In this document: positions 1 through 2,794 of the stretch, piece after piece
How the letters are laid out: every line of letters begins with the position of its first letter
Position numbering within the stretch: the stretch's first letter is position 1
NCBI RefSeq assembly: GCF_009938015.1
Contig: NZ_AP021884.1
Coordinates: 620,001 to 684,000 of the forward strand
Origin: Sulfuriferula plumbiphila
Lineage (GTDB): Bacteria > Pseudomonadota > Gammaproteobacteria > Burkholderiales > Sulfuriferulaceae
Direction: 5' to 3'
DNA length: 64,000 nt
Made by a program: the position numbers and the translations under genes
The notes under the pieces: generated by a model
Seen by the model: the letters and a program-made list of their open reading frames with translations, nothing else
Database searches by the model: none
Told to the model about the DNA's origin: nothing

Positions 1-1551
1 GCCCAGCTCCTGTTGGGCCAGCAGGTCCGGCAGCAGGCTCATGTGAAACGTGGAGGGGGTATCCAGGCGCGCCTGAATCACCCGGCCGCTGTCCAGGATC
101 AGGTTCAGACGCGCTTCGCCGCGTGGTGTTTCCACCGTGGCCTGCCCTTCACCCGAAGCTGCCCCGCTATCGACAGACGCTGGTTCCTTCAATACGCCCG
201 CCGACTGGATGAGCGCGAGACTTTGCCGCATTTCCTCCAGCCGGATGCGCAGACGGTCGAGGGCATCCCCGCCTTTCCGGCGCATCACCCGGAATGACAG
301 CGCGTTATAGGTTTCATCGGTAGTGCGTGCATCGGACCACATGCCCGCAGCCCGCGCCACCGGTCCCCGCAGGCCAGGGGCCGACGCAACGGGGCCGATT
401 CCGGAAAGCCGGGAGCGCAGCAGTGGGGTGCGTGCCAGCCGGCCCGCCAGTGCATGCACGGCCGGGCGCAGGCGCATGATCCCGGGCAGATCGGCCCGCA
501 GGCATTCCAGCTGCATCCGGGCCGCGTGCCGTTCGAGCCACGCAAAACCGGTCTGGCGGCCCAGTTGCGCCAGCCAGCCCAGATGGCTGGCGATGCGCTC
601 GCGCTCCAGCGCCACGACGCGTCCGCGCAGTATTTCCTGGTCGGGCGTGCGTCCGGTTGCGGCCTCCAGCGCGCGGCAGGCGAGCAGGCGGTAGGCCACT
701 GGCGTGAGGGGATCCATCGCGCCAAGGTGGTCAACGAAGCGGGTTGCCTCCATCCCGGTTGCCGGCAGCGACCCTGCCCCACCGACCAGCGACTGTGCAT
801 GCGCCTTCGCGACGGCGTCCCCGTCGAGCGTCAGGGTCAGCAGCAGGCCACCAGGCAGGCCGGGGAACAAGGGGCCGAACGGCACCTCGATCCAGTCCAT
901 CGGCAGGCCATCCGGACTGCGTGGCAGATCCTTCGTGACTTCGACCATGGACATGAACCCCATCTCGCTGTGATCCCTATCCGCATGATCCATGCCCACA
1001 TGATCATGGCCAGAATCGCCGGCCGGTACGCTTTCACGGGGGACCAGGGCCATGCCACACTTGGGACAGGAACCCGGCATGTCCTGCACAACCTCCGGGT
1101 GCATGGGGCAGGTGTACTCGATGCGGGCTTCCAGCATCGGCGCATTGAAATCGGCGGGATCGGCCTGGAAGGCACCCTGAGCCAGCAGCTTTCGTAGCTG
1201 GGCCACACCATTGAGAAGATGCTGCTGAGTCGGCGCTGCGGTCAAGTCGGCTTTGGGCAGAGACGCGAGTTCACCGCAGCCCAGCGCAAAGATCGCGCGC
1301 GGACGCATCATCTGTGCGTACAGAACGGCCGCGGCGGCTCCCAGTTCAGGGGGGACGGGGCCGACCAGCAGCAATATATTGGCATGACGCGGTGTGACGA
1401 CGATCCGCAGACCGGCTGCACCGGGATCCAGGCCTCTGGCGTGTGCCACTTCCAACCCCGGCACAACGAGTGCGCGCAAATCCCGCGCCATGCCCGTGGC
1501 CACCAGGCGGTGCAGCCATGTTGGTTTACCCCGCCGGGCGCCGGAAATCAT
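1..1551 (-). CDS. NuoB-like / heavy-metal-binding / NuoD-like fusion protein (C-terminus off window)
   Basis: The frame is open for 517 codons from ATG at 1551 to the left edge. Residues about 45-125 resemble NuoB (TPRHANILLLVGP; then MMRPRAIFALGCG), but only Cys92 could match an N2-cluster ligand: there is no tandem Cys pair, and the PGCPP region reads TAAPTQ. Residues 146-171 form a heavy-metal-binding domain of the CopA/CusB type (YTCPMHPEV, then CPKCGMALVP), followed by a His-rich stretch to about 195. From about 222 the protein resembles NuoD or group 4 hydrogenase large subunits (FGPLFPGLPGG, LDGDAVAKA, ERERIASHLGWL). The NuoD motif GPQHPxxHG is here GPLFPGLPGG, so both histidines are missing. 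No NuoC domain separates the parts. It starts one base after the NuoA-like stop, so the two are surely co-transcribed. Homology and fusion are seen in the sequence; a non-redox or metal-linked role is inference. Confidence 0.8.
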   Translation of the reverse strand, partial: MISGARRGKPTWLHRLVATGMARDLRALVVPGLEVAHARGLDPGAAGLRIVVTPRHANILLLVGPVPPELGAAAAVLYAQMMRPRAIFALGCGELASLPKADLTAAPTQQHLLNGVAQLRKLLAQGAFQADPADFNAPMLEARIEYTCPMHPEVVQDMPGSCPKCGMALVPRESVPAGDSGHDHVGMDHADRDHSEMGFMSMVEVTKDLPRSPDGLPMDWIEVPFGPLFPGLPGGLLLTLTLDGDAVAKAHAQSLVGGAGSLPATGMEATRFVDHLGAMDPLTPVAYRLLACRALEAATGRTPDQEILRGRVVALERERIASHLGWLAQLGRQTGFAWLERHAARMQLECLRADLPGIMRLRPAVHALAGRLARTPLLRSRLSGIGPVASAPGLRGPVARAAGMWSDARTTDETYNALSFRVMRRKGGDALDRLRIRLEEMRQSLALIQSAGVLKEPASVDSGAASGEGQATVETPRGEARLNLILDSGRVIQARLDTPSTFHMSLLPDLLAQQELG

Positions 1552-1552
1552 C

Positions 1553-1915
1553 TTATTGCCTGCGCAGTGCACCCTGACTCCAGCCGTACAGCAGGCCGAG
1601 AAAGAGGATGGCCAGGAAAACGCCCATATCCAGCAGGGCGACCAGTCCTTCCTGCCTGTATACCACCGCCCACGGGTACATGTAGGCCATTTCCATGTCG
1701 AAGGCCAGGAACAGCAGTGTATAGCCATAATAACGTGCGTGGTAGCGCACCCAGACAGGATTTCTCGAAAGTTTGCCTGCCGTGGCAGGTACGTTCTTGC
1801 CCGGTTCCTGTTGCGTGCGGCCAATAGCGCGGGTCAGGGCAAAGAGGCACAGAACCAGTCCGATCACACCGCTGGTTAGGCCCAGCAGCAAGCCGTACTG
1901 TTGCAATGTACCCAT
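1553..1915 (-). CDS. NuoA-like complex I membrane subunit
   Basis: A 120-residue protein with three membrane segments (about 6-28, 63-83 and 92-113). It matches NuoA in the diagnostic region: YTLLFLAFDMEMAYMYPWAV, then a LLYGW-type ending, including the conserved acidic residues in helix 2. The loop after helix 1 normally carries the YECG motif (the ND3 Cys loop at the quinone site); here it reads QEPGKNVPATAGKLSRNP with no cysteine. I chose ATG 1915 because GAGGGG lies just upstream and NuoA proteins start close to helix 1; an in-frame ATG at 1993 would add 26 unrelated residues. It is the first gene of the minus-strand operon that continues into the NuoB/NuoD-like fusion one base later. Being beside a decayed integrase and a tRNA suggests it is not the main nuo operon. 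Its role is presumably proton or ion translocation in a complex-I-like assembly (inference). Confidence 0.8.
   Translation of the reverse strand: MGTLQQYGLLLGLTSGVIGLVLCLFALTRAIGRTQQEPGKNVPATAGKLSRNPVWVRYHARYYGYTLLFLAFDMEMAYMYPWAVVYRQEGLVALLDMGVFLAILFLGLLYGWSQGALRRQ

Positions 1916-2717: not shown

Positions 2718-2794
<77 letters not shown>

Follow-up and report, generated by a model that had tools for sequence, protein, structure and literature searches.

An apparently redox-stripped complex I lineage with a heavy-metal-binding insert and a probable link to copper

The window analyzed here is a stretch of 64,000 nucleotides from Sulfuriferula plumbiphila (positions 620001–684000 of a complete 3.45-Mb chromosome), at whose left end a complex I-like operon on the minus strand leaves the window. 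Its gene order is nuoA-[B-D]-H-J-K-L-M-N: A nuoA-like gene (window about 1915..1553; PF00507, E 2.3e-23) is followed by a single open frame of 535 amino acids (window 1551..1 and on to genome position 619944), in which a NuoB-like and a NuoD-like part are joined with no NuoC between them. The ATG of this B-D fusion at window position 1551 is separated from the NuoA-like stop by one base, as the initial annotation, made from the sequence alone, had noted; 517 of the 535 codons lie inside the window, and the remainder occupies 57 bases past its left edge. The same annotation had expected an operon extending to the left, and the genome bears this out with genes for H (619947–619051), J (619060–618533), K (618536–618225), L (618228–616408), M (616375–614906), and N (614964–613501), all on the minus strand. 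The A, D, H, J, K, L, M, and N products each exceed their Pfam cut-offs, whereas B is recognized by a family profile only. NuoC, E, F, G, and I are absent from the operon as read from genome position 613501 to 621993, and neither an ATPase nor an RND domain is found within it. The NuoA-like protein keeps the membrane Asp/Glu pair and carries methionines at positions 100, 102, and 105 of the long open reading frame. Elsewhere the host possesses a separate canonical nuo operon (near 1352638–1367071) and two group-4-like clusters; its 49-kDa relatives at 2147318 and 3427129 were considered as a source of the fusion and dropped, the neighbors being group-4-like. The operon is flanked on the left by a cytochrome bd-type oxidase and SlmA and on the right by a tRNA-Met (window 2718–2794) and rpoD, and RND efflux genes together with an ArsR/SmtB-type metalloregulator lie about 10 kb to its left (genome 597248–603683).

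The NuoB-like part of the fusion (about residues 1–140; window 1132..1551, minus strand) is devoid of N2-cluster cysteines, and its sequence is degenerate beyond the reach of the Pfam NuoB model: Taken alone it stays under the cut-off with both Pfam NuoB (E 0.24) and NCBIfam NuoB (E 0.0046), while a profile built from the window protein and 31 relatives matches NuoB/NDUFS7 chains from solved complex structures (E 5e-7 to 1e-6). The NuoD-like part (residues 199–517 within the window; 1..957, minus strand) matches Complex1_49kDa (PF00346) above the cut-off at E 5.3e-21 and reads GPLFPGLPGG in place of GPQHP, as the initial annotation had observed. These matches confirm the reading of the frame as NuoB-like plus NuoD-like; what that reading overlooked is a heavy-metal-binding domain (HMBD, PF19335; residues 146–171, window 1039..1116, minus strand) between the two parts, found by Pfam at E 1.8e-13 with 50.6 bits against a cut-off of 23.6, and with the domain the link to copper was overlooked too. 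The HMBD is followed by a His/Met-rich linker that is predicted to be disordered (residues 172–198; window 958..1038, minus strand). Cysteines occur at positions 92, 148, 162, 165, 292, 350, and 524, so that the first 125 residues hold a single one, the sole CxxC of the protein (162/165) lies inside the HMBD, and the D part, with 292, 350, and 524 only, has no CxxC pair. An AlphaFold model of the fusion is of fair quality (mean pLDDT 79.7, pTM 0.78), with pLDDT under 50 at residues 176–224. Its top Foldseek match is NdhH (9grx_H, E 1.4e-11); the best 50 of 556 matches are all complex I, NDH, or hydrogenase-type entries, and a separate NuoB match is not found among these 50.

An alignment of the D part, scanned against the GTDB species genomes, returned 119 related stretches, the best 80 of which were kept as loci. 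These 80 include Marinobacter, Halomonas, Alcanivorax and relatives, Rhodanobacter, Thiogranum, and other gammaproteobacterial MAGs, furthermore Rhodobacterales, other alphaproteobacteria, Neopusillimonas, and one actinobacterium, Rubrobacter taiwanensis; among them, two Rhodanobacter MAGs are closest to the window, with 74 and 73% in the D part. All of A, H, J, K, L, M, and N accompany the fusion in 62 of the 80 loci, and in 17 of the remaining 18 the stretch ends before the missing genes would be reached; relative to the subunits of the window, median identities amount to 64–83%. In Marinobacter salarius (L102, 8817–13714) M and N are absent, and this copy may be decaying, because L is short and H is spread over two frames, or it may be a short form, in either case resembling the published cassette of M. 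atlanticus. In four further loci (L058, L059, L068, and L083) the B-D gene lies in two overlapping frames, a split that may be genuine or stem from faulty assembly. Near the host the picture is sparse: Although 58 of the 61 nearest genomes give a match at E ≤ 0.001 (the best apart from the window gene at 5.4e-13), the 60 near relatives contain no full-length orthologue, their matches being partial HMBD or NuoD-like stretches only, and none appears at E ≤ 1e-14 when the search is widened to the order (398 further genomes, three candidates per genome scored). Among 369 sampled genomes of the class, 13 others carry the fusion; this search overlooked a divergent sister copy in one genome (G429), which searches with NuoA, H, and K recovered. 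GC content is 0.61–0.66 over genome positions 614001–620000 compared to 0.53–0.63 in seven 2-kb blocks to the left. Because of this higher GC content, the adjoining tRNA-Met, and the lack of a relative in the genus, the operon likely reached the host genome by lateral transfer. The tRNA-Met together with the raised GC could mark the insertion site.

We compared the residues required for redox chemistry across these homologues, a check that the initial annotation had proposed, and the losses are shared. Within the first 125 amino acids, all 63 complete fusions contain between zero and three cysteines (0 in 21, 1 in 35, 2 in 5, and 3 in 2 fusions), which is too few for an N2 cluster, in agreement with the missing cysteines reported before. 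Cys92, in contrast, which had been taken as a retained N2 ligand, does not hold up: Its alignment column is cysteine in one of 32 rows, the window itself, and otherwise G (12), A (11), T (6), D (1), or E (1). In the D part, the quinone-site histidine is replaced in 78 of 78 loci, by Phe in 77 and by Ile in one (80 loci were examined, and the pattern missed two). The B-D alignment of 32 rows has many invariant columns. From these sequences we infer that the complex would be non-redox, which lends support to the earlier proposal of a non-redox or differently fuelled ion-moving complex. The insert is shared as well: An HMBD is present in 62 of the 63 complete fusions (the counts leave out 17 of the 80 loci, which are truncated or split or in which the pattern found no start), in one to ten copies each, distributed as none (1 fusion), one (16), two (29), three (7), four (4), five (3), seven (2), and ten (1, L120, as recognized by Pfam). 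The lone HMBD-free fusion (L128, 9305–11026) has an insert of 127 amino acids with 22 histidines, and a tandem His-rich repeat stands where the HMBD would be. It belongs to a Thiogranum MAG that carries two operon copies, the other being L061.

In order to describe the membrane subunits, we used the canonical subunits of 56 genomes of the class for comparison. Of the charged columns that are invariant in canonical subunits, the family retains 18/29 in L, 18/26 in M, 11/19 in N, 3/4 in K, 4/9 in A, 1/1 in J, and 8/23 in H, whose alignment to the best solved NuoH begins at residue 41 vs 67. The residues that we take to constitute the core proton path are all kept in L (Glu132, Lys210, Lys321, and Lys376) and M (Glu138, Lys220, Lys251, and Glu401), and NuoN keeps the three lysines; at its column 156, Leu (59) or Val (11) is found in place of the canonical Glu (27/27). 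With 8/23 columns retained in H while L and M are mostly kept, the quinone-side end appears stripped and the far end largely kept.

Methionine is enriched at the junction of these two ends. In J it makes up 10.9% (n = 77, range 9.5–13.0) compared to 4.1% in canonical NuoJ (2.1–6.5; n = 57 rows from two overlapping genome sets) and in K 8.7% (n = 76, 7.8–11.7) compared to 3.0% (n = 51, 2.0–6.1), and in neither case do the ranges overlap. The content rises little in A (4.5 vs 3.4%) and is unchanged in H (3.4 vs 3.2%, p 0.82), and the family's L, M, and N are poorer in methionine than the host's own canonical L, M, and N, the only subunits with which the methionine content of these three was compared. 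Family-invariant methionines that are absent from canonical subunits number 11 in J, 6 in K, 3 in A, 4 in H, 1 in L, 8 in M, and 4 in N, where the test for L, M, and N used 55, 30, and 27 canonical sequences, respectively. Fisher's test of J+K against L+M+N gives p 1.1e-7, and 3.9e-5 if A+H+J+K are taken instead, values that serve as a guide only since the family rows are related and J+K was picked after the data had been seen. In J, a canonical Tyr is replaced by Met in 78/78 sequences, and three residues past this position Glu68 is present in 78/78, whereas 57/57 canonical sequences have Ala. Methionines stand at −4, +4, and +8 relative to the new glutamate and would share one helix face with it, with the alignment around this Glu being uncertain by one or two residues. 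In K, a methionine precedes the first kept Glu by three residues, and the second kept Glu has one three residues before and one directly after it.

The gene neighborhoods of the family connect it to copper in part of its range. Five copper queries were taken from the loci themselves; four of these are named by Pfam (CopB, multicopper oxidase, P-type ATPase, and cupredoxin), and we call the fifth CusA-like on the basis of its sequence. With these queries, 22 of 44 well-covered loci (at least 19 kb) have a copper gene nearby compared to 1 of 20 control stretches, the thresholds having been chosen by the analyst and the controls being 20-kb stretches from two genomes. Overall, 27 of the 80 loci are positive, mainly relatives of Marinobacter, Halomonas, and Alcanivorax. 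The five queries find no copper gene in the other 22 of the 44 well-covered loci, nor was one found beside the window's own operon, and both results speak against a function in copper handling. Among other neighbors, an amino acid permease is frequent (23 loci), and a membrane protein of about 390 amino acids without a Pfam or NCBIfam match recurs in 12 loci where copper genes are absent (e.g., L070, 7655–8782).

A sister lineage lacks the HMBD. When the G429 fusion, which has no HMBD, served as the query against the 369 genomes, five loci of this kind were recovered in four genomes of three genera, the sixth match being of the HMBD type. A copper gene is present in all five: a CopM-like metallochaperone after nuoN in L231 (84.9 bits, narrowly short of the cut-off of 90), a copper-type ATPase in L289 (411–4099) that directly follows A and B-D at the place expected for H, a multicopper oxidase together with CopB immediately ahead of nuoA in L290 and L291, and a piece of CopB at the contig end in L292. 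L289 lies on a 5.6-kb contig on which A and B-D are all that is visible of the operon; the other four loci have the full gene set. The sister B-D linker is Met-rich instead of containing an HMBD, the D-part histidine is Phe or Met, and the first 150 residues hold zero to two cysteines. Methionine reaches 7.3–9.0% in J and 6.9–9.9% in K, the J glutamate is present in three of four sequences (the fourth being unreadable, X), and the sister NuoJ ends in a His-rich tail (e.g., L290 and L291), which in L231 (8327–8946) is long and His/Met-rich. As this lineage keeps both the copper genes and the refitted J and K, neither depends on the HMBD. In a NuoM tree (19 distinct family rows, one locus, L122, having been entered twice), family and sister group together and apart from canonical NuoM (98/96). 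The tree is mute on the origin of the lineage within complex I, because its 22 canonical rows all come from one class and the outgroups drew a long-branch warning from the program.

The initial annotation knew of no described system with this layout, which is nearly right: One instance had already been noted, namely the complex I-like cassette "NuoADHJKL" that, in the excerpts of Eddie et al. 2021 used here, lies inside a copper operon of Marinobacter atlanticus, shows higher expression together with the copper genes, and was grouped with them because of its location among them (PMC8233155). By this description, with nuo genes between copper-resistance genes, it is the same kind of operon, and M. 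salarius L102, which is related to it, is a family member by sequence. According to the authors, the cassette lacks nuoM and nuoN and its NuoL is short, whereas most relatives analyzed here have both nuoM and nuoN; the excerpted text makes no mention of an HMBD insert (the term occurs zero times), of lost redox residues, or of the methionines (PMC8233155). We found no description beyond this one in the open literature searched, and the main text of a paper on a copper-resistant Marinobacter contains "nadh", "nuo", and "complex i" zero times (PMC11371751).

Compared to respiratory complex I, the family has homologues of A, B, D, H, J, K, L, M, and N as well as what we take to be the core charged residues of L and M, lacks the N2 cysteines, the quinone-site histidine, and C, E, F, G, and I in the operon, and adds the HMBD insert and Met-rich J and K. 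The PFGPxxPGL of the D part resembles MBH alpha (WVKIPFGPIHPGL) and thereby group 4 hydrogenases; however, in contrast to group 4 hydrogenases, MBH, MBS, and Ehr, the D part has no NiFe CxxC pairs, NuoA is present, and the FeS ligands of B are absent. With copper exporters (P1B ATPases, CusB type) the window protein has the HMBD module in common, and the HMBD part of the family profile matches a copper-translocating ATPase chain (8ovl_A), but the operon lacks the ATPase or RND domain of these systems. Mrp antiporters, finally, differ in their subunit set MrpA–G, which is not matched by an operon with A, B-D, and H; we know of no Mrp complex with NuoA, B, or D. According to the parts of Steiner and Sazanov drawn on here, Mrp has no quinone-binding NuoH-like subunit, while the window operon has H, yet the proposed principle is alike, with protons entering via antiporter-like subunits and cations leaving via the J/K-like region (PMC7419157). 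The Na+ path described there passes Glu706 of the J-like part, equivalent to Tyr59 in complex I, then runs between two K-like residues at the place of two essential glutamates in complex I, and also includes Glu137 of MrpD in TM5 (PMC7419157). The first two of these spots are refitted with Met and Glu in the family, which points to cation transport. In the excerpts of PMC9433437, where "HMBD" denotes metal-binding domains in general and not the Pfam family, Cu(I) is likewise proposed to enter CopA ATPases by way of methionine in combination with acidic residues.

We are confident that the operon belongs to a complex I lineage that is real, widespread, stripped of its redox sites, and tied to copper. 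With regard to its function, our preferred but tentative reading is that the complex may be a proton/Cu(I) antiporter, i.e., a complex I descendant unable to reduce quinone and working in copper handling. Somewhat more speculatively, the lineage could have become such an antiporter by conversion of the quinone module into a cytoplasmic copper-loading arm and by refitting of J and K for Cu(I). On the preferred reading, copper would be bound on the cytoplasmic side by the HMBD or the His-rich repeats, would be passed via the former quinone region of B, D, and H into the Met- and Glu-lined path of A, J, and K, and would be driven outward by proton inflow through L, M, and N, as in Mrp with sodium. 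The most likely cargo of such a proton-driven exporter would be Cu(I) or Ag(I), and the outward direction is a guess from the resistance context. Several observations count against Cu(I) export. Charges are also lost outside H (L 11/29, M 8/26, N 8/19, and A 5/9), the lost Glu at column 156 of N weighs against it because this residue lines the cation site in Mrp, and the Marinobacter copies nearest the published cassette, e.g., that of M. salarius, look decayed.

Copper might alternatively be the signal and not the cargo of the complex, which would then exchange H+ for Na+ or K+ like Mrp or serve as a valve for pH or proton force. The insert would act only as its switch under metal stress. The putative core charges kept in L and M, an HMBD copy number that varies freely from 1 to 10 as that of a sensor or buffer could, and the half of the well-covered loci without copper genes in the five-query test would all suit a metal-gated antiporter. 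As it predicts neither the invariant methionines of J and K nor their persistence in the HMBD-less sister lineage, we consider it rather unlikely. These methionines would equally be left unexplained if the redox chemistry of B-D-bound copper drove ions via H, J, K, L, M, and N; moreover, the electron-accepting quinone site is gone in B, D, and H, and we know of no HMBD Cys/His sites that act as electron-transfer centers. Such a pump agrees with the copper context and the metal-binding insert and was suggested for the M. atlanticus cassette in the excerpts of Eddie et al. 2021 (PMC8233155), but against the objections just given we judge it unlikely, more so than metal gating.

That the operon is instead a decaying complex I copy without present function would account for the lost redox ligands as well as for the broken copy of M. 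salarius and the four loci with B-D in two pieces. Decay is hard to reconcile with loci of which 62/80 have all seven other genes at median identities of 64–83%, with the many invariant columns over 32 B-D rows, and with the expression reported for Marinobacter in the excerpted text (PMC8233155), and we regard it as very improbable. As to an assembly or sequencing error in the host genome, for which homologues with all N2 and quinone-site residues would have spoken, it is refuted because the homologues share the same losses; the same architecture recurs in 79 other relatives from many independent assemblies, which leaves error a negligible probability.

It has long been asked of complex I how chemistry at the quinone site is coupled to the movement of ions in J, K, N, M, and L. 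A natural complex in which the ion-moving arm is kept, the redox site is lost, and the junction is refitted constitutes a test case that reveals which components ion movement by itself requires. If copper is moved, the proton/Cu(I) antiporter would be a new kind of metal exporter in marine, hydrocarbon-degrading, and metal-site bacteria, would explain nuo genes inside copper operons, and would be, to our knowledge, the first machine of the complex I superfamily with a transition-metal cargo. The label HMBD is a general one for heavy metals, which counts against the reading as a Cu(I) exporter. In one Onishia locus (L113, 4544–4987), the operon has a MerR-type mercury regulator in its vicinity, suggesting that metals other than copper may matter.
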